Assembly: GCF_001457415.1 (NCBI RefSeq)
Contig: NZ_LN881724.1
Span: 1,860,001-1,924,000 of the forward strand
Reading direction: 5' to 3'
DNA: 64,000 nt
Origin: Gorillibacterium timonense
GTDB taxonomy: Bacteria > Bacillota > Bacilli > Paenibacillales > NBRC-103111
The position numbers were made by a program, and so were the translations under genes. Of this stretch, positions 2,557 to 39,836 are shown piece after piece (the first letter of the stretch is position 1; each line of letters starts with the position of its first letter). Under the pieces are notes generated by a model. That model was not told the DNA's origin and searched no databases. It saw only the letters and a list, made by a program, of their open reading frames with translations.

Positions 2557-2772
2557 TTGGATAACGGAATCGATGTCGTTCTGTATCAAAAGCTGGAGAC
2601 AGGAGAGCTGTTTCTGCTGGAGGAACGGACCTGGAACACGAACATGGTCGCGGCTTTGGAGCACATCAATTATCTGATTGTGGATGGTCAAGAGTACGAA
2701 ACGCTTGAAGGGCGGCTGAATGTGGATACGAATAAGCTTGAGCTGCTCCTGGTGTCGGTAAGGCATGATTGA
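2557..2772 (+). CDS. Small conserved-looking protein, first gene of the amidoligase/K+ channel operon
   Basis: Soluble 71-residue protein of unknown function, acidic, with no signal peptide or membrane helix. Its N-terminal half reads like a short beta-rich domain (DVVLYQKLETGELFLLEE). TTG at 2557 is chosen as start because AGGAGGGC lies 7-8 nt upstream. The stop at 2770-2772 is about 25 nt before the next gene start at 2798, so the two are surely cotranscribed. I do not recognise the family. Being first in an operon of an ATP-grasp ligase, DUF350 protein and potassium channel, it may be an accessory or regulatory subunit; that is inference from position only. Confidence 0.75.
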   Translation: MDNGIDVVLYQKLETGELFLLEERTWNTNMVAALEHINYLIVDGQEYETLEGRLNVDTNKLELLLVSVRHD

Positions 2773-2797
2773 GGCAAGAATAGGGGGAAAGAGCGCA

Positions 2798-3622
2798 ATG
2801 AACGAAGAGAGTCAAAACGAACGCCGCCCTGACCAAGCTGCTCCTGCGACAGCTCAGAAAGCGATGACGGCAGTCGATCTTACACCGATCGGAGCGGTAT
2901 CGCCTGCAGGCGGGTCACCGGAAGGCAAGCCGTTAAAGGTGCTGTCCACGTCCCTTGGGATCGCGTTGTTTGCGAATGCGTTTCTTGGAACGGGAGCGGC
3001 GGTAGCCGAAGCGAACAGCTCGGCCGCATCGGCGGATGAGCCGCAGCTTGTTTCCTGGTCAACGGAAGAGGTGAAGGCGTACTTCGACAAGAATGCCGAC
3101 TGGAGCCTTCCCCTTGAAGAAATTGAGAAAAATCAAGAAACCGAAGGAGCTTCTGGCGGATCGGGAACCGGGACGGGGACTGGATCGAACACAACCGTGA
3201 TCAATCAGTACGGAGGCTACCACTCAGGTTTCGGCTGGGATGACGTGCTTTTGTACCACATGCTGTTCAACAGCGGTGCACGTTATTCGACAACGAACTA
3301 TTACACGGATCACAAAGGCTATTACGCGGGAAGCAATCGCACCTACAAACCCGCAACGTATTCCAGCGATAAATTCCAGAATAAAGCAGTGGCGGGTTCA
3401 GCCGTTAAACCGAAGACATCCTCCACAAGCGGCACCTTCAAAAAGCGGGCGACGTCTTCGAAATCGGGAAGCATCGGAGGAACCTCAAGCAGTCTTAGCT
3501 CATCGAGTTCCAGCAGCAAATCAACCAGCAGCTCCAGCTCATCGAAATCCGTCAGCAAATCCAGCTCCAAATCGAGCTTTTCCAGCTCGAAGTCGACCAG
3601 TCGGGGGAGCTTTGGCGGATGA
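2798..3622 (+). CDS. Ser-rich protein with hydrophobic segment, candidate amidoligase partner or substrate
   Basis: 274-residue protein of unrecognised family. ATG 2798 is preferred over ATG 2765 because AGGGGGAAAG is well placed. Order of parts: Pro/Ala-rich N-terminus (1-45), one hydrophobic segment (48-71) that could be a membrane anchor or signal, a Gly/Thr run, an aromatic middle (Tyr/Trp-rich, containing GFGWDDVLLYHMLFNSG), and a tail of about 60 residues made almost only of Ser with Lys, ending in SRGSFGG. The stop overlaps the ATG of the ATP-grasp gene (ATGA). E. coli YgiB/YjfM proteins, also encoded next to glutathionylspermidine-synthase-like enzymes, similarly have Ser/Gly-rich tails; the parallel is mine and not tested by alignment. 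Confidence 0.8.
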   Translation: MNEESQNERRPDQAAPATAQKAMTAVDLTPIGAVSPAGGSPEGKPLKVLSTSLGIALFANAFLGTGAAVAEANSSAASADEPQLVSWSTEEVKAYFDKNADWSLPLEEIEKNQETEGASGGSGTGTGTGSNTTVINQYGGYHSGFGWDDVLLYHMLFNSGARYSTTNYYTDHKGYYAGSNRTYKPATYSSDKFQNKAVAGSAVKPKTSSTSGTFKKRATSSKSGSIGGTSSSLSSSSSSSKSTSSSSSSKSVSKSSSKSSFSSSKSTSRGSFGG

Positions 3623-4839
3623 CAATCGGAGAAGGAAGCCCAGTTTTTACCGTAACGGGGCAGCCACGGCCTGATCGTGATCGGCTTGTTCAAGAGCTGG
3701 CTGACATTGGCTTTACCTGGGCCGATCTGGAGGAGGAAGCTTATTGGATCGATCAGATCGTGCTCCTGGATCGATCGGTCTATGAGGAGCTTGAAGCTGC
3801 GGCAGCCGTGCTCTGGATCGTTCTCGACAAAGCAGCCCGTTACGTGCATCGAAATCACGTTCTCTATGATCTGATCGGTATTCCTGAGGTCCTCTGGAAA
3901 ATGCTTGATGTTTGCCCGCTGCCTCCTCCCGGCTTGATCAGCCGGTATGCGCGGTTTGACTTCGCAGTCAGCGATGCGGGGGAACTCAAGCTATTGGAGC
4001 TGAACGCGGATACTCCAACCGGCTATGTGGAGGCCTCCATCGCCACTCCCTGGCTCTGCAGGCAGGCCGGAATCGAATGTGTGAATGATGGAATGGCGGA
4101 TGCCGTCCACGATGCATGGGCGGAATATCGTCCCGATACGGTCGCTTGTGTCGATTATGGAAGCCACTTGGAGGATACTGGCACGGTTGAAGCGCTTGCC
4201 CGTCACAGCGGTCTTGAGGTGCAATTTGCCGACTGCCTCGATCTCTCCATCGACAAAGGCATCGTGAAGGACGCAAACGGCCGAGAGATCGACCGAATGT
4301 TCGCCCTGTATCCGAAGGAATGGATGGCCGTCGATGAGGGGGGAGAAGCGCTCGCCTACGGGATCGAAACCGGCCGCATCGCTTTGTTCAACCCGCCGCA
4401 CAGCATTCTGCTGCAATCGAAGGGACTTGTGGCGGCGGCTTGGGGCTTATACGAGCTCGGTCTTCTGTTCACGCCGGAAGAGCGCGCCGCTATCGAACGC
4501 TATCTGCTGCCGACGTACAACAAGGCGGTCTTCTCGGGCAGCTTCGTATCCAAATCGATGTTCGGCCGCGAAGGCGGTTCTGTCCGCATGTATGACCGGC
4601 AGGGAAACCTGGAGATCGAAGACCAAGACGGCTTCGACACCAGCACCTTATTCCCGACAGTGTTCCAGAAAAGGGCGGAGCTTGCCCGCGTCGAAACAGC
4701 GGAAGGAGAGCTTCACCTCTTGACCGGACTGTTCATGCTTAACGGGAAGCCCTGCGGCTTGCTCGGCCGTGCGGGCGGGCCGATCACTGGCAATACGAGT
4801 CATTTTATACCTATAGGGGTGAGATCATCATGCAAGTAG
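3619..4839 (+). CDS. Glutathionylspermidine synthase-like ATP-grasp amidoligase
   Basis: Predicted ATP-dependent amide-bond-forming enzyme of the GspS C-terminal synthetase family, 406 residues. Visible family motifs are RFDF followed by LLELNADTPTG (about 112-135, substrate and Mg binding), FNPPHSILLQSKG (about 257-269) and SKSMFGREGG (about 311-320, nucleotide-binding Lys and Gly-rich turn). The amidase half of true E. coli GspS is absent, so this is a stand-alone ligase. The start ATG overlaps the stop of the Ser-rich protein, and its end overlaps the next gene by 10 bases. Family members in such operons probably do not make glutathionylspermidine (these bacteria lack glutathione); the substrate is unknown. 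The ligase call is firm, its role is inference. Confidence 0.9.
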   Translation: MTIGEGSPVFTVTGQPRPDRDRLVQELADIGFTWADLEEEAYWIDQIVLLDRSVYEELEAAAAVLWIVLDKAARYVHRNHVLYDLIGIPEVLWKMLDVCPLPPPGLISRYARFDFAVSDAGELKLLELNADTPTGYVEASIATPWLCRQAGIECVNDGMADAVHDAWAEYRPDTVACVDYGSHLEDTGTVEALARHSGLEVQFADCLDLSIDKGIVKDANGREIDRMFALYPKEWMAVDEGGEALAYGIETGRIALFNPPHSILLQSKGLVAAAWGLYELGLLFTPEERAAIERYLLPTYNKAVFSGSFVSKSMFGREGGSVRMYDRQGNLEIEDQDGFDTSTLFPTVFQKRAELARVETAEGELHLLTGLFMLNGKPCGLLGRAGGPITGNTSHFIPIGVRSSCK

Positions 4840-5516
4840 AGAGTCGGATATCGGAAGTAGGCGCAGCTACAAGCAAGCGCCGCTCCCGCCTGAGCCGAAC
4901 CACGTTAGGGATGGCGGCAGTGCTGCTCGCTGTCGGGTTGACGGCGTGCACGAATAATCCCGACAGCGTCTTCAGCACCGTCGAGAGCAAGGAAACGACC
5001 GCTTCGGCGGATGTCGAGAGCATCCCTTGGGATTATCGAATCGTTGAGAATACCGTAGGCGATCTGGTAGGCAGTGATATGACCGTTCTACCCGACAATG
5101 AGCTGCTGCCGAACGACGACAACTACGCTACTGGAGACAAGATCTGGACCATGCAGTACATGGATGCGCAGATGAGCGTCAACGAAGAACAGCGGACCGA
5201 CATCAAGCTATCCGCCTGGAACACGATCAAATCTTACAAGGAAAAAGCCAAGGCTGAAGAAGATTTGGCGAATTTGAAGGTAACGGTTAAGACGGATGTC
5301 GGAGTTGTTGGAGTCTACAAGACGAAATACAAGGACAAAACGCGCAACTTTGCCGTGCTGGAGCTGCCATCGGGCAATCAGGTCAAGCAGCCGATTGATG
5401 ATGACCGGTATAAGAAGCTGGAAAAAGCGAAAACGGCCGAAGTCGTTCTCGAGCAGGTTCATGATTTTACGGATTATGACGCGGCATATGCCAAATTCCG
5501 GGGGTGGGCGAATTAA
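4830..5516 (+). CDS. Lipoprotein of the amidoligase operon (DUF4247-like)
   Basis: 228-residue predicted lipoprotein. After a long basic n-region come a hydrophobic stretch and lipobox LTAC with the lipidated Cys at 40. The exported part is charged and beta/alpha mixed (about 41-228) with no catalytic motif I can name. It looks like the small family annotated DUF4247, which I recall occurring beside DUF350 and GspS-like genes, but I cannot confirm this by search. It starts inside the ATP-grasp gene and its stop shares bases with the next start (TAATG), so translation is coupled. It should sit on the outer face of the membrane beside the DUF350 protein and the channel. Confidence 0.8.
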   Translation: MQVESRISEVGAATSKRRSRLSRTTLGMAAVLLAVGLTACTNNPDSVFSTVESKETTASADVESIPWDYRIVENTVGDLVGSDMTVLPDNELLPNDDNYATGDKIWTMQYMDAQMSVNEEQRTDIKLSAWNTIKSYKEKAKAEEDLANLKVTVKTDVGVVGVYKTKYKDKTRNFAVLELPSGNQVKQPIDDDRYKKLEKAKTAEVVLEQVHDFTDYDAAYAKFRGWAN

Positions 5517-5905
5517 TGGTTGTCTTGAATATCGTCGTTAGCGTAGTGGTCATTATTTTGTTGCAATTGCTGGGAATGGTCATCTTTCATTGGATGACGC
5601 CGTTCAATGATATGGAAGAGTTAAAGAAAGGCAATGTTGCGGTGGGGCTCGCGCTCGGCGGGAAGTTCCTTGCTACAGCAATCATTCTGGGAGTTGCCGC
5701 TTTCACCAATACGTCCATCTGGTTCATGATGCTTTGGTTCGCCATCGGCTATGTTTGCTTGATCGCGGCCTATTGGATTTTTGAGCTGGTCACTCTCGGC
5801 TTCAACGTCTCCAAGGAGCTGGAAAAGGGAAATGTCGCCGTCGGGATTATGCTGTGTCTGGTTTTCATCGGAAGCGCTTTTGCGGTGAGCAGCTTGATCA
5901 TTTAA
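5516..5905 (+). CDS. DUF350 family membrane protein
   Basis: 129-residue integral membrane protein with about four helices. It is built of two repeats: each begins with a helix and then a conserved E-L-x-K-G-N-V-A-V-G turn (about residues 35-44 and 102-111), the hallmark of DUF350 proteins such as E. coli YjfL. ATG 5516 (TAATG overlap) is preferred over GTG 5504, the GGGGGTGGG just upstream serving as ribosome binding site. DUF350 genes are known to travel with GspS-like ATP-grasp genes. The internal duplication suggests a pore or channel-like dimeric fold, but no transported species is known. Confidence 0.88.
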   Translation: MVVLNIVVSVVVIILLQLLGMVIFHWMTPFNDMEELKKGNVAVGLALGGKFLATAIILGVAAFTNTSIWFMMLWFAIGYVCLIAAYWIFELVTLGFNVSKELEKGNVAVGIMLCLVFIGSAFAVSSLII

Positions 5906-5923
5906 TAGAAGGCGGGAACGGCC

Positions 5924-6955
5924 TTGCATTTTATTGTGCGTCTCACGAGAAGCATGCTTCGGGTGAGCAAAAAGCATCTCGGCATCCTCATCGTTTCGTT
6001 CGTATTGGTCAGCGCCAGCTTGGCCTATTTGCTGGAGCCGGATACGTTTGGCAACTGGTTCAATGCGTTTTATTGGGTGCTGACGACGATGGCTACGGTG
6101 GGCTACGGCGATTATTTTGCTCACTCCGCGGTTGGTAAGGGCTTTACGATCTTTTTGTACATTTTCGGAATCGGTCTGCTAAGCCTCGTCATCGGCAAGG
6201 TGATCGACGGGTTCGGATCGGTTCACCGTCAGAGGAGAGCAGGAGAATTGACCTTTCGTGGCAAGGATCACATCATCATTATCAATTGGAACCGAAAAGC
6301 GCAAGCAGCCGTGGAGGAAATTGCCGCCTATCAAGCTGATCTGCCCATCGTTCTGATCGACGAATCCGGTCAGCATCCGATGGAACAGCTGCCGGGTGTC
6401 CACTTTGTCAAAGGCGATCCCTCTGACGATGAGGTGCTGATCAAGGCGGGAATTACCAACGCGAAGGCGGCCATCGTTTTTGCAGACCTGCGCATCGACG
6501 AGACGTCGCTCGCCGACGGAAAAACGCTGCTCATCGTCTCCAGCATCGAGCGGATCGCTCCGAAGGTTCACACGACCGTAGAAATTCTTCTGGAGAAGAA
6601 CATCCAGAATTTCCGACATGTTCAGGTGAACGAGTTTATCTTGTCGCATGATGCGATTTCGCGCCTTGCCGTCCGGGCTGCTCTGCAGGAAGGAAACGCC
6701 GAGGTGCTTCAGCAGCTCATCAGCCGCCAGCATGGCGACGATCTCTATGAGGTTCCGGCTGATCCGGCCTGGAGCACCTATGCGGACGCGTTTCACGGTT
6801 TTCTGCAACAGGGAGCGACCTTGCTCTCCGACCGCGGCGATCTCAGCATCAATCGCAAGCTTGGCGAGCGGATTCCAGCGGAAGCGCGGCTCTATGTCGT
6901 TGCGGATGAGGACACCTATCGAAGAATAGTGGGCGGACGCCGAACCGGTTCTTGA
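5924..6955 (+). CDS. Two-helix potassium channel with RCK (TrkA-N) domain
   Basis: 343-residue ion channel. Residues about 18-36 and 68-92 are membrane helices flanking a pore loop with the K+ selectivity filter TVGYGD (58-63). The cytosolic part from about 108 is an RCK/TrkA-N domain beginning HIIIINWNRKA, as in B. subtilis YugO-type channels, where the usual GxGxxG is replaced; acidic D-E pairs follow (LIDESG). The start is TTG 5924 with GGCGGG upstream, 18 bases after the DUF350 stop. It is the last gene of the operon, ahead of a terminator. A channel beside an amidoligase suggests that the ligase product or modified protein influences K+ flux or membrane potential; that is inference. Confidence 0.9.
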   Translation: MHFIVRLTRSMLRVSKKHLGILIVSFVLVSASLAYLLEPDTFGNWFNAFYWVLTTMATVGYGDYFAHSAVGKGFTIFLYIFGIGLLSLVIGKVIDGFGSVHRQRRAGELTFRGKDHIIIINWNRKAQAAVEEIAAYQADLPIVLIDESGQHPMEQLPGVHFVKGDPSDDEVLIKAGITNAKAAIVFADLRIDETSLADGKTLLIVSSIERIAPKVHTTVEILLEKNIQNFRHVQVNEFILSHDAISRLAVRAALQEGNAEVLQQLISRQHGDDLYEVPADPAWSTYADAFHGFLQQGATLLSDRGDLSINRKLGERIPAEARLYVVADEDTYRRIVGGRRTGS

Positions 6956-7004
6956 TGAAGGACAAACCTTGCATGACCCATTTGACCCGCACGACACGAC
7001 TAAT

Positions 7005-7052
7005 GCCCGCACGGCGGGGGGAGAGTATCTTCCCCGCTCATGCGGGTTTTTC
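7005..7052 (+). terminator. Terminator ending the amidoligase/K+ channel operon
   Basis: CCCGCA..GCGGGG pairs with CCCCGC..TGCGGG and is followed by TTTTTCTTT. The remainder of 6956-7244 holds no gene I can support; the promoter of the RND gene should be there but I cannot place it. Confidence 0.75.
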
Positions 7053-7244
7053 TTTATCTTCGCAAGCCTTCGAGGCAGAAGTACATGAACCAAAGGCCAA
7101 CTCCTTCCTAGACTTTGGTCGCGGTTTCGCCCTCAACCCGGGTTAGAAGACAATCGCTTCCGAAAGCTCTATTCTGATCAAGGAAACCTACATAGAAGAC
7201 AGTAGTAAGCCAAATCAAAAAAGAGAGTGGAAGGAGCCATTATC

Positions 7245-10200
7245 ATGAACCGCATTACCCGTTGGTCTTTTCGCAACAAATCGGCGGTCGGCCTATTGAT
7301 TGTCATGGTCCTCGTCGTCGGCATTCTGAGTTATTTCCGTCTGCCTATGGAATTGGTGCCGTCAGCGGACGATACCACGCTAACTATCACCGTCATTGGA
7401 CCGGGCTATGACGCCAAATCGATGGAAAGCGAGGTTACCGCTCCGTTAGAGCAAGCCTTAAACGGGCTAAAGGGCAAGAAGAATGCCTTCTCCACATCCG
7501 GAGATGGGTACACGAAGATCGACCTGTATTTTGAGTCGGATACGAAGATGAAAGAAGCTAAGCAGGAAGCCGAAGAGGCCCTCAGTCAGGTTCAGCTTCC
7601 GGAACGAGTATCGAAGCCCTACGTCATGCAATATAACACCAGCATGATCCCGATCTCTCAGCTCTCCATCGCGTTCGCAGACGGATTGTCTTCCAAGGAA
7701 CAGGAACAGCTGCAGAAGGATGTCGTGAACCAGCTGCAAAAAGTCAAAGGCGTCGCTAACGTCATGCTGGACGGAAAAAGCGCCCCTGTCGTATCGGTTA
7801 AGGCCGATCCCGCAAAAATGGCGCAAGCCGCGGTTCCCTATCAAAACTTGTTCACTCTCCTGCAGGGGCGGAACAGCTCGGTCTCCGCAGGTGAGCTGAC
7901 ATTGGATGGCCAAAGCGGTAACCTGCAGGTCACGTCCTCCTTAAGCAGTCTGGATGCTTTGAAGGATTTGCCGATCCTGCCGGGCGTACCCTTGAAGAAT
8001 GTAGCGGATGTCACCACCAAGGATGTCACGGAAAGCATCAGCCGCTTGAATGGCAATGATGCACTGTTCGCCGCGGTCAATAAAGAAGCGAAGGCCAATG
8101 CCGTTACGGTCAGTAAGGAAATCGCCAAGACGGTTGAACGGTTGAACAAAGAATACAGCGGGAAGCTGCAGATGGACATCTTCTTCGATACCTCGGACTT
8201 TATCGTCGATTCCGTAAACAGCATGATGCGCGAGGTGCTGCTCGGCGCGCTGTTCGCAACGATCGTCATTCTGTTCTTCCTGCGCAGCCTGCGGATTACA
8301 CTCATCACGATCGTTTCCATTCCGCTGTCTCTAGCGCTTACCCTGTATCTGCTGAGTCTATCCGGCGTCACGCTGAACATCATCACCCTCGGCGGGGTTG
8401 CGGTTGCCGTCGGCCGTCTCGTAGACGATAGCATTGTCGTCATCGAGAACATCTACCGGCGTCTGCAAAAGGAGAAATTCTCCGTCGACATGCTCATCGA
8501 TGCGACCAAGGAAGTGGCAACGGCCATCACGGCATCGACCATCACGACCGTCGCTGTCTTTCTGCCGATGGGGCTCCTCAAGGGCAACATGCAAGCCCTG
8601 CTGCTGCCGTTTGCCTTGACGGTCACCTATTCGCTTCTCGGATCCTTATTTGTCGCCTTAACGGTAGTTCCTCTGCTCGGTTCGGTGCTGTTACGCAAGG
8701 CGCCATTGAAGGAGCATAAGCCGCCGCAATCGTTCATCCGCTTCCTGGATTGGAATTTGCAGCACAAAGCTATTCCGCTCATCCTGGTTCTTGTCGTCTT
8801 CGTCGGCTCGATCGCCGCTTATATCAAGCTGCCGAAGGGAGCTGTCAGTACCCAGGATTCCACTTTCATGAGCGTGGAACTGAACTATCCGAGCGATACC
8901 CCCGTAAGCAAGGTTATCGAAGAGGGCAAGCGCCTGGAAAGCTACCTGATCGCACAGCCGGAACGCAAATACGTTCTGATGCAAAGCGGAAACAGCTCGG
9001 AGAATGCCAAATGGGGATCTGTCGTCTCCCCAACCCTTGTCAGTTACTCGATCATTCTCAAGGATGGAAAGGAAGCCAAGGCGTTTGAGGAGCGCATAAA
9101 AGCAACCAAGGATCAATATCCGGGCGGTACGCTAACGGCTGGAGTACTGAATCTAATGGGAGGAAGCTCAACCAGCGTCTATGTGGATATCGTCGGCGAT
9201 GACGCATCCCAACTCGGTGCGGTAGCCAAGGAAGCCGTTGATAAGATCAAACCGGTATCCGGCGTGGATAAGGTGGAAAGCAACGAGCAGAATACGAAGC
9301 CGGTCTTCAAGATCGAAGTCAATCCGTCTGAGGCAAATGGCTCGGAAGTCGCACAGCAGCTGCAAGGCATGCTGAATCCGATCCCGCTTGGAACGATCAC
9401 GCTGGAGAACCGCACATCCACCGTCCAATTGGAGCCGCTTGCCTCTCCGCAGAAGCTGGATGAGCTCAAAAATCTGACCATCACCACGGCTGCAGGACCG
9501 GTCTCTCTCACCCAAGTGGCATCGATTCACTCCGAGAACGAGCCGAGTATGCTATACCACAAGGATGGCAAACCGTATGTCCGCATCTCCGCTCAGGCCG
9601 ATCCCAACAAGCTTTCGGAAGTAGGGAAGGACATTCAGAAAGCGGTGGATCAGCTGACTGTTCCGAAAGGTGTTGACGTTCTTGTCGGGGGTGCGTCTGC
9701 GGATCAGTCCTCCGATATGTCCAGCTTGTTCATGGTGCTTCTCGTCTCGATCGGTTTGGTTTATCTGATCATGGTTCTAACTTTCAAGACGCTGCGCGCG
9801 CCCTTTGCCATCATCATGTCTCTGCCGCTCGCAGCAATCGGAGCCGTCATCGGGCTGATCGTAGCACGCGTAACTCCGGATTATACCGCAATCTTCGGCG
9901 CATTGATGCTCGTGGGCATCGTCGTGACGAACGCCATCGTGCTCATCGATCGGGTGAAGCACAACGAAGAGCACATGTCCATTCGCGAATCGCTCCTGGA
10001 AGCGGCCGGCACCCGGATGCGGCCGATTCTAATGACCGCGCTCGCCACCATTTGCGCTATGCTCCCGCTGCTGTTCGGTGAAACCGAGATGGGCAGCATC
10101 GTATCGAAGAGCCTCGCCATCGTCGTTGTCGGAGGATTGACCGCTGCGACCTTCCTTACACTGGTCATTGTTCCTGCTGTATACGAGCTGCTGCACTTCC

Positions 10201-27181: not shown

Positions 27182-28222
27182 TTGCGCCGCTCTGCAGCTA
27201 ATTTCGGTATTCATTTGTTGTTTGGACTTGCCATGTTCCTCATCATTTGGATCGCGATGAATCCAGGGGGAATCTTGAAGGTTCCTTCCTTTGGAACCGA
27301 AGGCGTACAGACCTTCAAGACCATGTTCATCAGCATCTTTCTCGAAGCGCTTCCTTATCTCATCATCGGAGTATTGGTATCCGCCATCCTGCAAGTGGTG
27401 GTTCCGGAAGCTTGGATCCGCCGCTTCGTTCCGAAGAATCCGATTCTCGGCATTGCTTTCGGCTGTCTGCTCGGTATCCTTTTCCCCTTATGCGAATGCG
27501 GGATGATTCCGGTAGTCCGGCGGCTGATACGAAAAGGCATGCCGCTCTATGTAGGAGTCGTATTCATTCTGGTCGGACCGATCGTGAATCCCATCGTTTT
27601 CGCCGCGACCTATACGGCGTTCCGAATTCGCCCGGAGATGGTGTATGCGCGGATGGGACTCGCTCTCTTGGTTGGGCTGGTCATTGGACTCATCCTTTAT
27701 GCCTTCGTTAAAAGCGATCCACTCAAAACGACCAAGGAGGATTTGTACCGAAGCGAGGCGGCAGAATCTGGGGAAGGTCCCGAAGAGGAATCTGGCACTC
27801 AGGCAAAAGGCATGGGCAAGCTGTTCGCCGTGATGGAGCAAGCCGGCGGTGAAATCTTCGACATGGGCAAGTACCTCATCTTCGGCTCGGTGATGACCTC
27901 GCTGATCCAGGCCTTTGTTCCGAGGGCGGGGATGGCGGAGATCGGACAGCAGCCGATTGTGTCGCATCTATTCATGATCGGGTTCGCTTACGTGCTGTCC
28001 CTTTGCTCCACCTCGGATGCGTTCGTCGCGTCTTCGTTTGCCCGGACGTTCTCGTCCGGTTCGCTGCTCACCTTTCTCGTCTTCGGACCGATGCTTGATT
28101 TCAAGAGCACCTTGATGCTGCTGTCGGTCTTCAAGCCTCGGTTTGTCCTACTGCTCGCGGGGTTGATTACGGTGACCGTGCTGATTGGCTCCCTCATCCT
28201 GTCCCATTATGCATTGTGGTAG
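27182..28222 (+). CDS. Permease with CECG motif (YcgR/ArsP-like), copy 1
   Basis: 346-residue membrane protein of the UPF0718/DUF318 permease family (B. subtilis YcgR). Conserved elements: FPLCECGMIPVVRRL (about 101-115), GPIVNPIVFAAT (about 133-144) and SLCSTSDAFVASSF (about 274-287). A hydrophilic central loop (about 180-215) splits two four-helix halves. TTG 27182 follows AAAGGAGC. It pairs with the TIGR03943 gene 32 bases downstream. The upstream Zur box says it is made under zinc shortage, so a role in zinc or metal-complex movement is likely; direction and substrate are unknown. Confidence 0.88.
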   Translation: MRRSAANFGIHLLFGLAMFLIIWIAMNPGGILKVPSFGTEGVQTFKTMFISIFLEALPYLIIGVLVSAILQVVVPEAWIRRFVPKNPILGIAFGCLLGILFPLCECGMIPVVRRLIRKGMPLYVGVVFILVGPIVNPIVFAATYTAFRIRPEMVYARMGLALLVGLVIGLILYAFVKSDPLKTTKEDLYRSEAAESGEGPEEESGTQAKGMGKLFAVMEQAGGEIFDMGKYLIFGSVMTSLIQAFVPRAGMAEIGQQPIVSHLFMIGFAYVLSLCSTSDAFVASSFARTFSSGSLLTFLVFGPMLDFKSTLMLLSVFKPRFVLLLAGLITVTVLIGSLILSHYALW

Positions 28223-28254
28223 CAAGCTTACGACTATGAAAGAGGAGCGCGTTT

Positions 28255-29349
28255 ATGAATGATACCCGAAGAGAGTCCCTTCATTATCTGGCTCGAGCCG
28301 CTATCTTGATGGGGCTGTCCGCGTATATCGCTTATCTGGTCCAGATCGGAAAGCTGTCGTATTACATCATTCCCCGGCTGGAGCAGCAGGTGAAATATGC
28401 GGGAGTCGCGCTGTTCATCATCGGCGCCTTTCAAGCGTATTTCGGCCTGTTCGGCAAGCCGAAGGAAGGAGCGTGCGGCTGCTGCACGCACGCTCCTTCA
28501 AGGTCACTCCTGCGCAATGTGGTAACGTATGGTTTATTTGTGCTGCCGCTCAGCCTCGGCCTTCTGCTGCCGGATTCAGTGATGGGCGCAAGCGTTGCCG
28601 CTGTCAAGGGGATGAACCTGAACGCGAATGTGTTAGCGGTCAAGAAGGCCAAGCTCCTCGCCGAATCGGCTCCGTCGAAGGAGCCGGTGAGTCGGGCGAG
28701 TGCGGCAGTTCCATCTGCCGAGAGCTGGAGCTCTACAGACGAAGAGGGGAGAGCGGCTTTCGAAAGCCCAGATGCCGATGGAGAGAATGCCGCTTCTACT
28801 GGCTCCCTTCCTACGGCATCACCGGGCGAGGGAGATATTACCCCGCCGAACGGTTCGTTGCCTGAGGCTCAGAGTACGGGCGATGATCCTTTTGCTACCA
28901 CGGATCCCTACATGGAGGACTATGCCAGGCTCGGCAGAAAATTGGCCGCACACTCCCTCGTCGATGTGAAGGAAACCGGCTTTATGGAGATACTCGGAGC
29001 GCTGGATCTGTTCAAGGAACCGTTTCTTGGCAAGAAGATCCGTCTCAGCGGGTTCGTATATCGAGAGAAGGATATGGGAGAGGGGAGCTTTGTCGTATCA
29101 CGCCTAGCCATGCAATGCTGCTCTGCCGACGCGGCGCCATATGGACTTCTCGTCCGGTCGTCGATGTCCACTACGTATCAGAAGGACGATTGGGTCACCG
29201 TGACGGGGACCATCGAGAGCTCCACTTATCAAGGTCAGGAGATCATCACCGTGAAGGCTGAATCCATCAGCCGGATCCAAGCGCCGGACTCTCCCTATGT
29301 CTATCCGTATATGGGCGATTTTGCTGAGCTGTCTGGATCGGGTAATTAG
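28255..29349 (+). CDS. TIGR03943/DUF1980 putative permease subunit (YcgQ-like), copy 1
   Basis: 364-residue membrane-anchored protein. Two helices near 16-33 and 45-62, a Cys-rich cluster EGACGCCTH (about 74-82), another helix, an unusually long Pro/Ser/Glu linker (about 130-215), then the C-terminal OB-like domain with RLSGFVYREKDMGEGSFVVSRLAMQCC and SADAAPYGLLV. The CC-x-AD motif is the family signature. Members always accompany a CECG permease and are thought to form a two-component transporter. Its stop overlaps the stop of the convergent GTPase gene. Confidence 0.88.
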   Translation: MNDTRRESLHYLARAAILMGLSAYIAYLVQIGKLSYYIIPRLEQQVKYAGVALFIIGAFQAYFGLFGKPKEGACGCCTHAPSRSLLRNVVTYGLFVLPLSLGLLLPDSVMGASVAAVKGMNLNANVLAVKKAKLLAESAPSKEPVSRASAAVPSAESWSSTDEEGRAAFESPDADGENAASTGSLPTASPGEGDITPPNGSLPEAQSTGDDPFATTDPYMEDYARLGRKLAAHSLVDVKETGFMEILGALDLFKEPFLGKKIRLSGFVYREKDMGEGSFVVSRLAMQCCSADAAPYGLLVRSSMSTTYQKDDWVTVTGTIESSTYQGQEIITVKAESISRIQAPDSPYVYPYMGDFAELSGSGN

Positions 29350-30377
29350 CTTCTGGCTGTTTCCTTCGATACCCCTGTCGGAAAGAGAGCCTCCCATTCT
29401 GTTCGCAACCGCTTCTCATCCAGATCGAGTCCGATGAGCACCAGGTAGGGGGCTTCTTCATATCGAGCGGGAGTCCATTCGGCCCGCTTACCGGCATATT
29501 GCAGCAACTGGGTACCCTTGCTGGAATGAGGGACATAGCCCTTTGCTCGCAGGAGACCCTGACCCCAAAGGGACAAATAACGTTCGATCTTGGGAAGCGG
29601 CAGTCCGGCTCCGTTCGGAAATTCGAGCAGGAAGGTCCGGATGCGGGAGAAGGAAGCAGGCTGCTCCTTCTGTACAGGAGGGTTTTCCCGGTTCATTACC
29701 ATCGGAACTGCTCCGGTTGATACGCGAAGAGGGCGGCGGACGGGGATAGCGCCGCTTTCACCCGGTCGAATTCCTTCGAAGAGAGGGGGCAGCTCCATTT
29801 GACTCATGCGAGTCGGAATCAGCGGAGCCCGATCATTCAGCTTGCGGATCGCCTTCTCAAGCTTGGGCAGCAGAGCAGGCTTTACCCGGTCGATCTTGTT
29901 GAGAAGGATCTGGTCTGCGACTTCAATTTGCCTGCGCAGCGTTCTCACCAGCTCCTTGTCCGAGGCAAAGATGCTGTTGTACTCAAGGGTGTGCTCCGCA
30001 TCCAGTACAGTGACGATTTGCTTGATTTTCACTTTTCCGAGCAGTTCGGGTTCGGTCAAGGCATCGGCCACTTCCTCCGGATTGGCAACGCCGGTGAGTT
30101 CAATGATCAGAAGATCGGGCTTGGTCCGCAATAGGGAAGCGAGACTTCCGGCCAGCTCGCTTTTTTTCGTGCAGCAGACGCAGCCGTCCAGGAGTCGCGA
30201 TAGGGCGATATCGGACGTTTCGCTTACAATTTGTCCGTCGACATCCCGTTTTCCGAGTTCATTCATCAAGACGCCGGCACGAAGACCGCGGGCATCCGCT
30301 TCCTCCAGAAGGTGGAGGAGAAGAGTCGTTTTGCCGCTTCCGAGAAAGCCGCTCAGGATCAGGACAGGGATGCTCAT
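29346..30377 (-). CDS. COG0523/CobW-family GTPase (YciC/ZagA-like zinc metallochaperone)
   Basis: 343-residue G3E GTPase. P-loop GFLGSGKTT (9-17), the family metal motif GCVCC (about 65-69, CxCC), IELTGVANPEEV and the guanine motif NKID (about 160), then the CobW C-terminal domain from about 250. In B. subtilis the Zur-controlled YciC/ZagA delivers zinc to FolE under starvation. ATG 30377 follows AAAGGAACC on the minus strand. A Zur-box-like palindrome lies 26-40 bases upstream, and the divergent neighbour is a zinc-free S14. The zinc-chaperone role is strongly supported by context. Confidence 0.92.
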   Translation of the reverse strand: MSIPVLILSGFLGSGKTTLLLHLLEEADARGLRAGVLMNELGKRDVDGQIVSETSDIALSRLLDGCVCCTKKSELAGSLASLLRTKPDLLIIELTGVANPEEVADALTEPELLGKVKIKQIVTVLDAEHTLEYNSIFASDKELVRTLRRQIEVADQILLNKIDRVKPALLPKLEKAIRKLNDRAPLIPTRMSQMELPPLFEGIRPGESGAIPVRRPLRVSTGAVPMVMNRENPPVQKEQPASFSRIRTFLLEFPNGAGLPLPKIERYLSLWGQGLLRAKGYVPHSSKGTQLLQYAGKRAEWTPARYEEAPYLVLIGLDLDEKRLRTEWEALFPTGVSKETARS

Positions 30378-30811: not shown

Positions 30812-30996
30812 GAAGCATCGTTTGGCTGGTTGAGGCTTTGAAGTCAGGGTGAACGCTCACAAGACCATGGATAACGCGCATTGCAGGCGGATTGTACGGA
30901 TTATAGGGAGACTCCGGACATAACCTGTCCTCACTCCGAATAGGGTATAGGTAAGACAAACGGTCCGGCAAGGGGGCTGGACGGAGAGGATTGCCT

Positions 30997-32040
30997 ATGC
31001 GCACTGGGAGCTTCAGAACGAGTATACCCTGGCTATTCCTATTGGTCATCTGTACAGCCGGGACGGTGATCCGGTTAAGCCCGAACCACCGCGCCTTGAC
31101 GATGACACTTCCGGCTGCGGATATCATCATGTCCTTTAAGACGATGCTGATCGGCATCGTTCTGGAGGCGCTGCCCTTCATGCTGCTCGGAGTTGCGGTA
31201 TCTGCGTTCATGCAGGTCTTCGTTAGCGAACAGACCCTTCGGAAGCTCATTCCGAACCATCCGCTCGGAGGGATCGCGGTTGCCTGTCTTCTCTGCGTCT
31301 TGTTTCCGCTCTGCGAATGCGGCATTGTTCCCATCGTGCGCCGCTTGATGGCGAAGGGAATGCCGGTTTATATCGGCGTTGTCTTCCTGCTGGTCGGCCC
31401 AATTGTCAATCCGGTTGTCTATGCGGCAACCTTAACGGCTTTCCGCTCCAATCCGGAGATGAGCTACGCCCGGATGGGCTTTGGCCTGCTCGTCGGATGC
31501 GGAATCGCACTCGTCGTGTATGCGATCAAAATCCGGCAGCCGCTTAAGCTTGATAAGGAGCAGCTCTACGCACAAGCTCAGCAAGCTCGGCAGGAAGGGA
31601 GTACACCGACAGCGATCGGACATCGCCTCTCGCAGGCGTTCTCACACATGGGCCATGAGTTTTTTGAGATGGGCAAGTATTTGCTCCTGGGCTCCGTGCT
31701 AACGGCAGCCATTCAGACGGGGGTACCTCGCTCGGCGATCACCGGGATCGGAAGCCATCCGCTCACCGGAAGCCTAGTAATGATGGGGTTCGCCTTTGTC
31801 CTCTCGCTGTGCTCCACCTCAGACGCTTTTGTGGCCGCCTCCTTCACCGGAGCCTTTCCACCGAGCGCGCTTCTCGCGTTTCTTGTGCTGGGACCGATGC
31901 TCGATTTGAAAGGAACTTTGATGCTGCTCTCGGTTTTTCGGGGAAAATTCGTGCTGCTGCTTTCGATTCTAGTCGTTCTGTTCGTCCTCGGCGGAGTCCT
32001 GCTGATTCATCAATTTGGGTCCGCTCTGGGCTTGACTTGA
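30997..32040 (+). CDS. Permease with CECG motif (YcgR/ArsP-like), copy 2
   Basis: 347-residue paralogue of the protein at 27182, with near-identical landmarks: FPLCECGIVPIVRRL, GPIVNPVVYAATLTAF, KYLLLGSVLTAAIQT and SLCSTSDAFVAASF. ATG 30997 follows GGAGAGG; TTG 30991 is an extension. I see no Zur box or strong promoter in 30812-30990, so it may be read through from rpsN2. It is followed 15 bases later by its TIGR03943 partner. Zinc-related metal transport is inferred from context. Confidence 0.88.
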   Translation: MRTGSFRTSIPWLFLLVICTAGTVIRLSPNHRALTMTLPAADIIMSFKTMLIGIVLEALPFMLLGVAVSAFMQVFVSEQTLRKLIPNHPLGGIAVACLLCVLFPLCECGIVPIVRRLMAKGMPVYIGVVFLLVGPIVNPVVYAATLTAFRSNPEMSYARMGFGLLVGCGIALVVYAIKIRQPLKLDKEQLYAQAQQARQEGSTPTAIGHRLSQAFSHMGHEFFEMGKYLLLGSVLTAAIQTGVPRSAITGIGSHPLTGSLVMMGFAFVLSLCSTSDAFVAASFTGAFPPSALLAFLVLGPMLDLKGTLMLLSVFRGKFVLLLSILVVLFVLGGVLLIHQFGSALGLT

Positions 32041-32055
32041 GAAGGAGGACTCTAG

Positions 32056-33021
32056 ATGCGAGAGGAAACACGAATGAACCATGAGGCTGGACATCCAGCA
32101 GATAGCCGCATGGTCCGCCACTATCTGTTTCGAGCCTTGCTGCTGCTTGCTTATTCTCTCTACATTCTCTATCTCGTTCAGAGCGGCAATCTCTTTCATT
32201 ACATCGCTCCTCGGATGGAGACGCTCGTCAAGCTTGCTGCACTGGGATTGATTGTTGTGGCGGGAGCTCAAATCTGGTTGGCGCTCGGAACACGCCGGGA
32301 GGAGCGGATGGATTGCGACTGCTGTGCGCCGGACCCGGCTTCAAGAGGTCGGTCCAGCGGGCTGCTCTATCTCTTGTTTCTGCTGCCGCTCCTAACAGGA
32401 TTTCTGCTTCCAGACGGGGTTTCAGGAAGCGAATTGACCGCCGTCAAAGGAATATCCCTGAGCGGCCCGGATGGGACAGTCGGGTTTCTGTCTGCGTCAT
32501 CTTCTACGGCAAAAGGTGTTTCGGCTGCCGGGCCTTTCGATTCGGGAGGGTTTTCGACCGGAGCTTCAGAGGATGTTCAAACTGACGGCTACAATGAGGA
32601 TTTCATTTGGCTCGCCAAGCGGCTCTATAACCAAGATCGAATCTCGGTACCGGATGAGGGGTACTTGGAGGTTCTCCGCGCGGTCGATTTGGATCTCGAT
32701 CGCTTTGTCGGGAAGACCATGACGATCAGTGGATTTGTCTACCGGGATAAAACAATGAAGGGCGACGAATTCGCCGTCGCTCGACTGGTCATGTCCTGCT
32801 GCGCGGCGGATTCCTCCTCCTATGGCGTGCTTGTTCGGGATGTGAATAGCCGCGATTGGAAGCAGGACGAATGGGTTTCCGTGACTGGAACCATCAGCAA
32901 AGTGAAGGTTGATGGAAAACCGGTTTTGGCTCTGGCTGATGGTAGCGTTGTTCCGTCTACGGCTCCCGCGAATCCTTACGTCTATCTCTATACCGGGGAT
33001 TATCAAGATCTAATTCGGTAA
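32056..33021 (+). CDS. TIGR03943/DUF1980 putative permease subunit, copy 2
   Basis: 321-residue paralogue of the protein at 28255. Two N-terminal helices, Cys cluster MDCDCCAPD (about 91-99), another helix, a shorter Ser/Gly linker, and the C-terminal domain with ISGFVYRDKTMKGDEFAVARLVMSCC then AADSSSYGVLV (the CC-x-AD signature). AAGGAGG is placed 7 bases before ATG 32056. Together with the permease it repeats the copy 1 gene pair, consistent with a tandem duplication separated by the GTPase and S14 genes. Confidence 0.88.
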   Translation: MREETRMNHEAGHPADSRMVRHYLFRALLLLAYSLYILYLVQSGNLFHYIAPRMETLVKLAALGLIVVAGAQIWLALGTRREERMDCDCCAPDPASRGRSSGLLYLLFLLPLLTGFLLPDGVSGSELTAVKGISLSGPDGTVGFLSASSSTAKGVSAAGPFDSGGFSTGASEDVQTDGYNEDFIWLAKRLYNQDRISVPDEGYLEVLRAVDLDLDRFVGKTMTISGFVYRDKTMKGDEFAVARLVMSCCAADSSSYGVLVRDVNSRDWKQDEWVSVTGTISKVKVDGKPVLALADGSVVPSTAPANPYVYLYTGDYQDLIR

Positions 33022-33123: not shown

Positions 33124-33186
33124 ATAAGAAAAGACTGCTTTTGACATACGCCGATGCTGGCGGCAAAGCAGGGAAAGGTGATGAAC

Positions 33187-33894
33187 ATGGAGATCGTCAA
33201 GATGGAGGAAGTGGTCTTCGGGTATGGAGACGTTCCTTCGCTGGTCAATGCCAGCCTGTCGATCCGGCAGGGCGAGTTCGTTGCGTTAACCGGCCCGAAC
33301 GGCGCATCCAAATCTACAGCGTTGCGGCTTATGCTCGGTTTGCTGAAGCCTTGGAGTGGATTGATTCAATTGGCAGATCGATGCGCCGATAGCAGACCCC
33401 TCACAGTTGGGTACGTACCCCAGCAGCTCTCCGCATTTAACAGTGGGTTTCCCAGCACGGTGAAGGAGTTTGTCCTCTCCGGACGATACCGGAAAGGCGC
33501 TTGGCTGAAGCGGCTGCTGCCGGAGGATCACCGCAAGGTGGAGGAAGGCTTGCGACAGGTCGGCATGTGGGAGCATCGCGGGAATCGGATCGGCGAGCTG
33601 TCGGGAGGTCAGAAACAGCGGATCTGCATCGCCCGGACGCTCGTACAGGAGCCGGATTTCTTCGTCCTGGATGAGCCAGTCACCGGCATGGATAAGAACA
33701 GTCGCATGGATTTTTACCAACTGATGGAGGAGCAAGTTCGCGGCAGAGGAAGCACCGTTCTGATGGTGACCCATAACCTGGAGGAGGTCAAGGATCGGCT
33801 CGATCGGATCATCGAACTGGAGCGAACGGAGGAGGGGGGATGGCGATGCTGCACTACGACTTCATGCAGAGGGCATTTTATGCCGGCGGGATGA
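33187..33894 (+). CDS. znuC: Zinc ABC transporter ATP-binding protein
   Basis: 235-residue ATPase of the ZnuABC/AdcABC zinc importer. Walker A is GPNGASKST (Ser in place of the usual Gly before Lys, a change common in this subfamily as Ala), signature LSGGQKQR (about 138) and Walker B FFVLDEP (about 158). ATG 33187 is chosen from the AAAGG six bases upstream; ATG 33181 and 33154 are in frame. The end overlaps znuB by 55 bases, so coupling is tight. Zur box upstream. Confidence 0.92.
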   Translation: MEIVKMEEVVFGYGDVPSLVNASLSIRQGEFVALTGPNGASKSTALRLMLGLLKPWSGLIQLADRCADSRPLTVGYVPQQLSAFNSGFPSTVKEFVLSGRYRKGAWLKRLLPEDHRKVEEGLRQVGMWEHRGNRIGELSGGQKQRICIARTLVQEPDFFVLDEPVTGMDKNSRMDFYQLMEEQVRGRGSTVLMVTHNLEEVKDRLDRIIELERTEEGGWRCCTTTSCRGHFMPAG

Positions 33895-34730
33895 TTGCGG
33901 TCCTGGCCTCGACGCTCGGGGTCTATCTGATGCTGCGCCGTCAAGCGCTGATGGCGGACATGCTGTCTCATGTTTCCCTCGCTGGAGTTGCAGCTGGCGC
34001 CTATTTCGGGTTTAACCCCACGCTTGCCGGATTTCTGACCGCCGTACTCGGCGCAGTGGCCGTTGAATATGTGCGGCGGAGCTATAAATCCTACAGCGAA
34101 ATTTCCATCGCCATCATCATGATCGGCGGACTCTCTCTTGCGGTTGTGCTGATGAGCCTGAACAAAAGCTTGACCCGGAGCTTTTCCTCCTACTTGTTCG
34201 GAACAGTTGTAGCGGTAAATACCACAGAGCTATTGCTTCTCGCGATTGTGACCGTAATCGGTGGTTTATTCTTCGCCTTGTTTCGCCGGCCGCTCTATCT
34301 GTTGACCTTCGATGAGGAAACAGCGCGTTCCATCGGAGTACCTGTTAATCGCTTGACCTTTGCCTTCAGCGTATTGACCGGCATGATCGTCGCGTCGGCG
34401 ATGCCGATTGTCGGAGTCCTGCTCGTTTCTTCCCTCATCGTTTTGCCTGCCGCTCTGGCGATTCGCTTATCCCGGTCTTTTGCATGGTCGATTGTCATCT
34501 CCATCGGCATCGGGATGACTGGCGTTTTCTCGGGGCTTACGGCTTCTTATGAATGGAGCACGCCCCCTGGTGGAACGATTGCCCTCGTGCTGCTCTGCAT
34601 CTGGCTGGTCGGTACGGGGATTCATCAAGGCTGGAAACGGTTTGGTTCCAAGAACAGCAAGAAAGCAAAGTCGTCGCCTTCTCGAAAAGGGCAGAATCTA
34701 CACGGCTCGGAAAAGGGACTGGACTACTAA
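33840..34730 (+). CDS. znuB: Zinc ABC transporter permease
   Basis: 296-residue membrane permease of the zinc/manganese ABC-3 family, about eight helices, with the typical RRQALMADMLSHVSLAGVA near 40-60 and SIGVPVNRLTFAF in the cytosolic coupling region. ATG 33840 or 33846 both follow GGAGGAGGGGG. The C-terminal tail (from about 260) is basic and unstructured. Works with znuC and the binding protein at 34774. Confidence 0.92.
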   Translation: MAMLHYDFMQRAFYAGGMIAVLASTLGVYLMLRRQALMADMLSHVSLAGVAAGAYFGFNPTLAGFLTAVLGAVAVEYVRRSYKSYSEISIAIIMIGGLSLAVVLMSLNKSLTRSFSSYLFGTVVAVNTTELLLLAIVTVIGGLFFALFRRPLYLLTFDEETARSIGVPVNRLTFAFSVLTGMIVASAMPIVGVLLVSSLIVLPAALAIRLSRSFAWSIVISIGIGMTGVFSGLTASYEWSTPPGGTIALVLLCIWLVGTGIHQGWKRFGSKNSKKAKSSPSRKGQNLHGSEKGLDY

Positions 34731-34773
34731 TCTTCCCCATTCAATATCATTCATCTCATTAGGAGGAACACCT

Positions 34774-35844
34774 GTGAAACCATCGATCTCATCCCCTGTT
34801 AAATTTTCCTTTTCTGTCATCCTCGCCAGCGCTGTACTATTGACCGGCTGCGGTAAAGCCACCCCATCGGCGGCGACCGATTCTTCAACTGTCTCCGCAT
34901 CTCCAAGTTCAGCAGTAACGGCATCCGCCTCACCCGCACCGGCTGAAGGCAAGAAATTGAAGGTTGTGGCTAGCTTTTATCCGATGTACGAATTCGCTCG
35001 CCAGGTTGGCGGAGATTACGCGGAGGTCACCGCACTCATTGGAGGCGGAGTTGAGCCGCATGATTGGGAACCGACGCCGAAGGATGTCGCGGCTATTCAA
35101 GAAGCGGATCTCTTTGTCTACAACGGCATCGTAGAAGGCTGGGCGGACAAGGTGATCACAAGTGCTGCGAGCGACAAGCGAGTCGATGTGAAAGCTAGCG
35201 AAGGCATTACGCTTGCGGAAGGGGAAGACGAGCATGACCACGACCATGAAGGGGAAGCGGGTCACGAGGAAGATAACCATGATTCTACAGGTGAAGGTAG
35301 CCATGAGGAAGAGGAGCATGGCTTGGATCCCCATGTCTGGCTGAGCCCCGTGCTCGCCCAGAAAGAGGTTCAAACCATCGCTGAGGCATACAAGAAAGCC
35401 GACCCTGCGCACAAGGACGAATACCAGAAGAACGCCGACGCTTATATCGCGAAGCTGAAAGAGCTGGATGAAGCCTTTAAAACGGATCTTCAAAACGTAC
35501 TGCGCAAGGACTTCATTACCCAACACGCCGCTTTCGCTTATCTGGCAAAGGAATACGGACTCACGCAGGTTCCCATTGCGGGTCTATCCCCTGAGCAGGA
35601 GCCTTCTCCGGAGCAAATGGCAGAGGTCATTACGTTTGCTCAAGACCATCAGGTGAAGACCATCTTCTTCGAAACGTTGGTGGAGCCTAAGATCGCCGAA
35701 ACCATCGCCAAGGAGATCGGTGCGAAGACCGATGTGCTCAATCCGCTCGAAGGGCTTACGGATGAGGAGCGGCAGAAGGGACTCGACTACATCGGCATCA
35801 TGAAGAACAACCTGGAAGCCCTCAAGAAGGCGTTATCCGAATAG
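34774..35844 (+). CDS. znuA: Zinc-binding lipoprotein of the ABC importer
   Basis: 356-residue solute-binding lipoprotein of the ZnuA/AdcA cluster A-I family. Lipobox LLTGC with Cys at 26, Ser/Ala linker, then VVASFYPMYEFARQVGG. The first metal His is in VEPHDWEPTPKD; a His/Asp/Glu-rich loop (about 153-187) leads to LDPHVWLSP, and later ligands are in TQHAAFAYLAKEYG and FFETLVEPK. The His-rich loop is the mark of zinc rather than manganese binding. GTG 34774 follows AGGAGGA. Third gene of the znu operon. Confidence 0.94.
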   Translation: MKPSISSPVKFSFSVILASAVLLTGCGKATPSAATDSSTVSASPSSAVTASASPAPAEGKKLKVVASFYPMYEFARQVGGDYAEVTALIGGGVEPHDWEPTPKDVAAIQEADLFVYNGIVEGWADKVITSAASDKRVDVKASEGITLAEGEDEHDHDHEGEAGHEEDNHDSTGEGSHEEEEHGLDPHVWLSPVLAQKEVQTIAEAYKKADPAHKDEYQKNADAYIAKLKELDEAFKTDLQNVLRKDFITQHAAFAYLAKEYGLTQVPIAGLSPEQEPSPEQMAEVITFAQDHQVKTIFFETLVEPKIAETIAKEIGAKTDVLNPLEGLTDEERQKGLDYIGIMKNNLEALKKALSE

Positions 35845-37603: not shown

Positions 37604-38752
37604 CTAGAAATTGCGATAGACGTAAGGATTCTTGGGTGCTTCAATCCGATCCCAAGAGGTGACTTCCAGCACAGGCAGCGTTTGCTTGAAGGGCTGGTAC
37701 AGCTCCGACGAGAGAGTACCGGTGACATGGACCCAATCATCATCCTTCAGCTCGGTACCTTTGGGAAAATCGACCAGCATCCCGAACACACCAGAATCGG
37801 CGGCGCAATGGATGAAGCCGAAGCGGAAGACGAAGTAATGATTGCCTTCGACCTGTTCTCCTTTGTAAGCGAAGCCGTCGAAGGAGACGGTCTTGCTCAT
37901 AAACTCTCCAGGGAAATTATATAGAACTTCCATCCCCTTCAAATAATCCGTTTCGTTCAGCGGAATCTCGTCCTTGCCCGCAAATTCGGCCAATTCCTTT
38001 TTCTTCAGCTTCTCGTACCCGTCCTTGCCGTAGAAGATGCTCGTATCCGGCCGCAGGAATTGATGATTGCCGGGATTGTCGGCGGACACATCGAGGCTGG
38101 GAAAGGAAAATCCCTTTGCCTTCACAAAGCTTGAGTCGAGGGTCTGAATAGGCAAAAAGATGCCGGTGTAAATGGGAACGCAGAGGATGAGATACGTAAT
38201 CGCACGCTGAAGACGGGTCGTATTACCATGCGAATGGCCATCGTGGTCATGGGCGTGGGAATGCCCCATTTGATCGTGATCGTGAGCATGTCCGTGGTTA
38301 TGCGCATGGTGATCGTGATCATGAATGTGATCATGATTGTGCGCATGATGGTCGTGATCATGCGCACGTTCGTGATCGTGAGCATGATGGTCGTGATCAT
38401 GAATCTGGTTGCTAACAAGTGAATGGTTATCGTGTATCTCTGAGCCCGTATCCCGGTAGGTACTTTCCTGTAGATAAGGTTGACTGGGGTCATCCTGTTC
38501 TTCGTTATCGTGATGCTTCTCAGCCTTCTGTCGGCTCTCTTCTTCTGTGGCTTCCAGCGCTTTCCGCCGCTCTTCGGCGCGCTCTTCCCGGAAGACCCGG
38601 ATGAATTCGACGACGCAGAGCAAGGAGAGGATGGCGATGGTCATATCGGACAAGTAGGCGTATTTGGTGTTGATGTACATGTTCAGATTGCCTTCCACAC
38701 GAATGAACACGAACATCAGAACAAAACCAAGCATGATGACAAATCGTTTCAT
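37604..38752 (-). CDS. TIGR03943-type permease subunit with His-rich linker, copy 3
   Basis: 382-residue relative of the proteins at 28255 and 32056. It begins MKRFVIMLGFVLMFVFIRVE (helix), second helix about 31-48, then an acidic stretch and a segment of about 60 residues (115-178) made mainly of His, Asp and Ala, clearly metal-chelating. A further helix follows (about 185-202), then the C-terminal domain with SFDGFAYKGEQVEG. The CC-x-AD signature is reduced to HCAADSGVFGMLV with one Cys. ATG 38752 overlaps the permease stop (ATGA); the open frame extending to 38965 lies inside that permease gene and is not coding. Confidence 0.85.
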   Translation of the reverse strand: MKRFVIMLGFVLMFVFIRVEGNLNMYINTKYAYLSDMTIAILSLLCVVEFIRVFREERAEERRKALEATEEESRQKAEKHHDNEEQDDPSQPYLQESTYRDTGSEIHDNHSLVSNQIHDHDHHAHDHERAHDHDHHAHNHDHIHDHDHHAHNHGHAHDHDQMGHSHAHDHDGHSHGNTTRLQRAITYLILCVPIYTGIFLPIQTLDSSFVKAKGFSFPSLDVSADNPGNHQFLRPDTSIFYGKDGYEKLKKKELAEFAGKDEIPLNETDYLKGMEVLYNFPGEFMSKTVSFDGFAYKGEQVEGNHYFVFRFGFIHCAADSGVFGMLVDFPKGTELKDDDWVHVTGTLSSELYQPFKQTLPVLEVTSWDRIEAPKNPYVYRNF

Positions 38753-39762: not shown

Positions 39763-39836
39763 TAGCCCACCGCCAATTCGGAAGTTTACGCATTCTCTAC
39801 TATACTCCGATTTTGCGTGTGGGCAACTCATTTACG

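Follow-up and report, generated by a model that had tools for sequence, protein, structure and literature searches.

A PF03738 ligase, DUF350 and PspA-type membrane operon of Paenibacillaceae: a testable candidate substrate end and three unnamed protein families

Paenibacillaceae carry a membrane operon of the PF03738 ligase, DUF350 and PspA type that includes three unnamed protein families and offers a testable candidate substrate end. That end is the new element reported here: a Ser-rich secreted protein, encoded directly before the ligase, terminates invariantly in Phe-Gly-Gly (FGG), a feature for which no description was found in the literature searched. With a probability of roughly 0.55, we regard the unit as a Bacillota version of the YjfC/YgiC peptide-polyamine ligase module; its ligase would attach a polyamine to the Ser-rich protein's C-terminal glycine, and this capping would belong to a membrane-stress module linked to PspA. 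This reading builds on the gene unit itself, an intact ligase, the invariant tail, an nspC gene and the proximity of PspA in some relatives.

Six tightly packed open reading frames lie on the + strand of the window (the whole 64,000-nucleotide stretch of DNA that was analysed) at 2557-2772, 2765-3622, 3619-4839, 4830-5516, 5504-5905 and 5924-6955. The channel gene, which is the last of them, is followed on the + strand at about 7005-7050 by an intrinsic terminator, a strong hairpin with a T tail (-28.8 kcal/mol, z -4.35). The first-pass annotation had proposed a six-gene operon closed by a terminator, with overlaps or very short gaps between its genes; the operon and its boundary are borne out and the packing is indeed tight, although an overlap between genes 1 and 2 is improbable because the likelier start of the Ser-rich gene is at 2798. 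Pfam names three of the six products, namely a GSP_synth ligase, a DUF350 protein and a two-transmembrane K+ channel with a TrkA_N/RCK domain, all as expected from that annotation, and returns no match for the small, Ser-rich and lipoprotein genes, which leaves its fourth suggested family, DUF4247, unmatched. PADLOC gave no match to anti-phage defence systems. Elsewhere in the window, three paralogous pairs, each by eye a permease with a TIGR03943-type protein (27182-29349, 30991-33021 and 37604-39831), are arranged around genes for a CobW-like GTPase (29346-30377) and for ABC-type metal uptake (33154-35844); together they are a possible zinc-limitation cluster.

A scan of species-level genomes with the ligase alignment yielded 80 loci from Paenibacillus, Cohnella, Fontibacillus and Saccharibacillus, which makes 81 with the window. 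Ligase, lipoprotein and DUF350 genes are each present in 81/81 loci, the small-protein gene in 77, the Ser-rich gene in 76 when read automatically (contig ends truncate two loci, and a further three had to be inspected by eye) and an adjacent channel gene in 58, and gene order is identical in all 81. The next most common neighbouring gene cluster reaches 19/81 loci at most, so the unit is not a product of chance; it is real and its edges are sharp. Gene order also extends beyond close relatives; its restriction to them would have counted against the first-pass proposal. Different genera share it, and so do different families of the order once the adjacent channel is left aside: 6/20 relatives from other genera or families have the five-gene core of small protein, Ser-rich protein, ligase, lipoprotein and DUF350. 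More distant Bacillota have shorter versions that consist of a short lipoprotein or secreted Gly/Ser-rich tail protein, the ligase and DUF350. The same channel occurs upstream of the shorter version in two of them (L026, L027), and a different, six-transmembrane channel (PF00520, E 6e-34) lies downstream of the tail, ligase and DUF350 genes in L119. This last locus (5553-8595), from another Bacillota family, encodes a lipoprotein ending GGGFGG, the ligase, DUF350 and the six-transmembrane Ion_trans channel. Upstream of the tail gene, class B ligase loci carry one more conserved gene, for a protein of ~150 aa with an EYRL..GFP start (L114 4954-5418, L116 7516-7971, L118 8161-8619, L022 6983-7432 and L028 9879-10334); the copies in L022 and L114 have no Pfam match.

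Gene 3 (3619-4839, + strand) encodes a GspS-like ATP-grasp amidoligase related to YjfC and YgiC (PF03738, E 1.2e-54, 186 bits against a curated cut-off of 29.3). Among solved E. coli structures, it matches PDB 7uk6 (YjfC) at E 1.5e-22 and 7uk8 (YgiC) at E 1.8e-12, with 26-27% identity. Residues R316, D318, E330, N332 and K498 of E. coli Gss correspond to R112, D114, E127, N129 and K268 of the window ligase, and K533, R538, Q568 and R598 to K312, R317, Q350 and R384. These positions include ATP, Mg and carboxylate-binding residues and every compared catalytic position is retained, which dispels the earlier concern that the ligase might be degenerate. Twenty-one positions are invariant among nine divergent ligases. 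The window ligase thus shares the ATP-grasp domain of Gss and its catalytic positions; it differs in being distant in sequence, in having no amidase domain and in its putative substrate, a protein instead of glutathione. A true glutathionylspermidine synthetase is ruled out, with 30.5 bits against a cut-off of 882 for the NCBIfam equivalog. Glutathione is not known as a usual thiol of Bacillota. The product of the E. coli homologues had been described as unknown in the first-pass annotation, a statement now superseded: YgiC and YjfC are named peptide-spermidine ligases in RefSeq, following Pederick et al. (2023) as cited in PMC12270671 and PMC12568646. The original paper may already name the neighbouring E. 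coli tail proteins as substrates.

The Ser-rich gene (gene 2, + strand) belongs to no Pfam family and probably spans 2798-3622; its open reading frame opens at 2765, the ATG at 2798 stands behind AGGGGGAAA, and the gap between genes 1 and 2 has a median of 24 nt in relatives. Its product has basic residues at the N-terminus and a signal-like hydrophobic stretch; a conserved FGWDD..LYH core, an (I/V)GGxSS motif and a variable Ser/Gly/Lys linker of 15 to 41 residues follow, and the linker leads to the terminal FGG. The codons for this end, TTT GGC GGA, lie at 3611-3619 (+ strand), and the TGA stop at 3620-3622 overlaps the ligase ATG. All 79 readable loci (76 read automatically, with L046, L103 and L110 added by frame reading) end in Phe-Gly-Gly-COOH, as do 41/41 clusters below 80% identity, compared with a chance expectation from linker composition of about 0.0006 per sequence. 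Synonymous variation in the Phe codon and both Gly codons indicates that selection acts on the protein.

Pairing of this tail with the ligase is strict. The Ser-rich profile (A2) matches solely at the ligase, in 7/20 genomes, with the exception of one marginal 33-position match at E 4e-4, and most related loci read encode an exported Gly/Ser-rich tail protein just before the ligase. In E. coli, YjfM ends HWGG and YgiB ends SMGG, and both are encoded directly before their ligases. The earlier suggestion of the Ser-rich protein as the ligase's target has gained specific support from the invariant FGG, the Gly-Gly ends in E. coli and the strict gene pairing. Gly-Gly is not required throughout the family: tails of other classes beside such ligases, class B among them, often end in Ser (L019, L025, L114), and L023 and L024, more distant relatives that keep the same gene set, have tails ending SGS. 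Frames are disrupted in L020 and L021, where tails end SFGS or SSGG; in L020 (7324-9941) the disruption extends to the lipoprotein gene as well as the Ser-rich gene, probably through assembly errors. The Ser-rich protein follows a DUF1190-like plan in its pre-ligase position, export signal, Gly/Ser-rich tail and Gly-Gly end. Assignment to DUF1190 by sequence is unsupported (Pfam matches in 0/20 members; hhalign probability with YjfM of 1.5%), and the likeness is one of plan and position, as distinct from a test of homology.

Two E. coli gene sets are among the nearest comparisons. yjfIJKLMC encodes DUF2170, PspA, DUF2491, DUF350, DUF1190 and the peptide-spermidine ligase YjfC; the window unit resembles it in its ligase, DUF350 and an exported pre-ligase tail protein ending Gly-Gly, and PspA is found in the cluster of five window relatives. 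Unlike yjfIJKLMC, the window unit has no detected DUF2170, DUF2491 or DUF1190, and its K+ channel, two-part lipoprotein and 71-aa protein are absent from the E. coli cluster. ygiB-ygiC is similar in that a tail protein (YgiB) is followed directly by a GspS-like ligase, but it comprises two genes only, with no DUF350 or channel.

Two further products of the unit are also unnamed. Gene 1 (2557-2772, + strand; family alignment A4) encodes a 71-aa protein modelled as beta-beta-alpha-beta-beta-beta with an AlphaFold mean pLDDT of 92; it matches no known family and has no structural match below E 0.001. Gene 4 (4830-5516, + strand) encodes a lipoprotein with a lipobox-like VGLTAC, which is modelled as two beta-rich halves (AlphaFold pLDDT 84); it likewise belongs to no known family, and a fold search with its model gave nothing below E 0.001. 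Fold searches with these two models gave weak hints of a DUF2500-like domain (E 0.1) and a HisI fold (E 0.01). The proposal that the lipoprotein is a DUF4247 protein is ruled out, with PF14042 matching 0/38 members.

Gene 5 (5504-5905, + strand) encodes a YjfL-type DUF350 membrane protein (PF03994, E 1.3e-29, 103 bits against a cut-off of 26), and gene 6 (5924-6955, + strand) an MthK-like K+ channel (PF07885, E 7e-16; TrkA_N PF02254, E 1e-10). The TVGYGD filter of the channel is invariant in 22 sequences and its best PDB matches are to MthK (E 1e-24). It shares two transmembrane helices, the TVGYGD filter and an RCK domain with the Ca2+-gated MthK channel, and differs from it in belonging to a bacterial family that has a C-terminal region of its own. 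Of all the unit's members, the channel is the most variable, with no copy beside the cluster in 23/81 loci. Its family occurs in 9/14 ligase-bearing and 0/6 ligase-free relatives (one-sided Fisher p 0.012, uncorrected for relatedness), but this association is undercut by several non-adjacent copies in unrelated or transport-gene contexts, which may be a separate subgroup; the case for an obligatory linkage between channel and ligase is therefore weak. Non-adjacent copies in L140 (3459-5985) and L141 (4771-7292) sit, by eye, beside a cation/proton antiporter-like gene. That the ligase acts directly on the channel is no more than a possibility.

PspA occurs close to the unit in some relatives. 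PspA and DUF4178 genes lie antisense between DUF350 and the channel in 5/81 loci (L046 8286-9551, L047 8314-9594, L072 8281-9534, L095 8310-9499 and L109 8335-9531), with PspA matching PF04012 at E values down to 9e-50; neither gene is in the window's cluster. DUF4178 occurs without detected PspA in L106 and L107. It directly follows DUF350 in two families of the order (L016, L018), and the window genome carries a DUF4178-DUF4247 pair away from the cluster (L030 6044-7357; C7 about 1174000-1175400), with DUF4247 at L030 6044-6781. These arrangements probably tie the unit to the PspA-polyamine group. The DUF4247 lipoprotein in L030 has a long Ser/Thr/Lys-rich tail and ends FSTKRRR. Ravi et al. 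(2024; PMC11237479) reported GspS-like ligase, DUF350, lipoprotein, ligand-sensing K+ channel and PspA genes together and suggested polyamine-linked membrane control. Their group comprises a GspS-like ATP-grasp protein, K+ channel, DUF350, DUF1190 lipoprotein and DUF2491, with a DUF4247/DUF2617 variant. The window unit shares its ligase, DUF350, lipoprotein and ligand-sensing K+ channel with that group; it differs in its Ser-rich FGG protein, its 71-aa protein, the uncharacterised family of its lipoprotein, PspA that is usually not adjacent and DUF4247 located elsewhere in the genome. An amidoligase wired to a potassium channel, which the first-pass annotation had presented as novel, is thus already published as a gene association (PMC11237479), and YgiC and YjfC already bear their peptide-spermidine ligase names.

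Polyamine supply can be assessed from the window genome, which is 99.97% complete and has no AdoMet decarboxylase and no spermidine synthase. It does carry nspC (carboxynorspermidine/carboxyspermidine decarboxylase) at 523 bits, far above the cut-off. Among 20 relatives, AdoMet decarboxylase is missing from the window genome and the ligase-bearing G007 only, and both have nspC. The missing decarboxylase, considered as an argument against spermidine, is overturned by nspC, which makes a spermidine-type amine plausible. All 20 relatives have a polyamine route, with or without the ligase, so the route does not discriminate between them; it removes an objection and is not positive proof. A PotA search matched many ABC ATPases and was hence uninformative.

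Glutathionylspermidine synthetase activates the C-terminal glycine of glutathione. In the proposed mechanism, the cytosolic ATP-grasp ligase would form an acyl phosphate at the C-terminal Gly carboxylate of the Ser-rich protein (...FGG-COOH), and the activated glycine would be joined to an amine of spermidine or a related polyamine. This step would precede export because the ligase needs ATP and the tail is predicted to be exported. Predicted export would then place the flexible Ser-rich tail at the outer membrane face with a polycation end instead of a carboxylate. Capped tail, lipoprotein and DUF350, together with PspA and often the MthK-like K+ channel, could stabilise the membrane or signal about it, and under envelope stress the module may keep the membrane sealed and polarised. 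We infer the tail as substrate, its chemistry, the amine, the order of modification and export, the topology, any membrane or channel effect and the function of the module from the gene content and conservation described above. The further idea that a polyamine-capped diglycine end on an exported tail tunes the K+ channel or the PspA-guarded membrane, and so provides membrane potential control in Gram-positive bacteria, is speculative and, on present indications, rather unlikely.

The ligase might instead make a small peptide-amide resembling glutathionylspermidine, which the Ser-rich protein, lipoprotein, DUF350 and channel would bind, export or sense. In favour of this, the substrate of GspS is a small peptide, small molecules are frequent products of ATP-grasp amidoligases (PMC12568646), a ligand could be sensed through the channel's RCK domain and some tails have no Gly-Gly end. 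The unit has no peptide-making partner gene, however. FGG is also much better conserved than the remainder of the tail and, in the loci read, occurs together with the ligase. We regard a small metabolite as a doubtful, if serious, explanation. Another possibility is that the Gly-Gly end is a by-product of a ligase start and ribosome-binding site that overlap the last codons, with a tail that is not a substrate. The Ser-rich and ligase genes overlap by 4 nt in 73/76 loci, and the last codon is GGA in 71/76, its A starting the ligase ATG. Such an overlap leaves the invariant Phe unexplained, and the Gly and Phe codons vary synonymously. FGG also persists in L064, L100 and L109 without the 4-nt overlap and in L119 with a 26-nt gap after the tail gene, which excludes that overlap as its cause; short gaps separate the genes of the E. 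coli pairs ygiB/ygiC and yjfM/yjfC, whose tail proteins still end in Gly-Gly. We consider this origin most improbable.

Ubiquitin-like tags are attached through a diglycine end. Resemblance to such tags would favour a peptide-tagging system in which the FGG tail becomes linked not to a free polyamine but to another macromolecule, through an amine on a lipid, the wall or a protein. SUMO LGG ends can accept either protein or spermidine (PMC12270671). Against tagging, spermidine is the amine used by the closest characterised enzymes, active sites of the GspS type accommodate small amines and the unit has no de-tagging protease-like gene; tagging of a macromolecule is accordingly judged very unlikely. 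Polyamine capping of the Ser-rich tail remains our preferred reading. An invariant FGG on a dedicated partner points to one candidate substrate of YgiC/YjfC-type ligases, with a single defined bond that can be sought in culturable paenibacilli, and the unit provides a Gram-positive counterpart to the E. coli ligase genes. If this reading is true, capping an exported protein with a polyamine would count as a novel type of surface modification connected with membrane stress.
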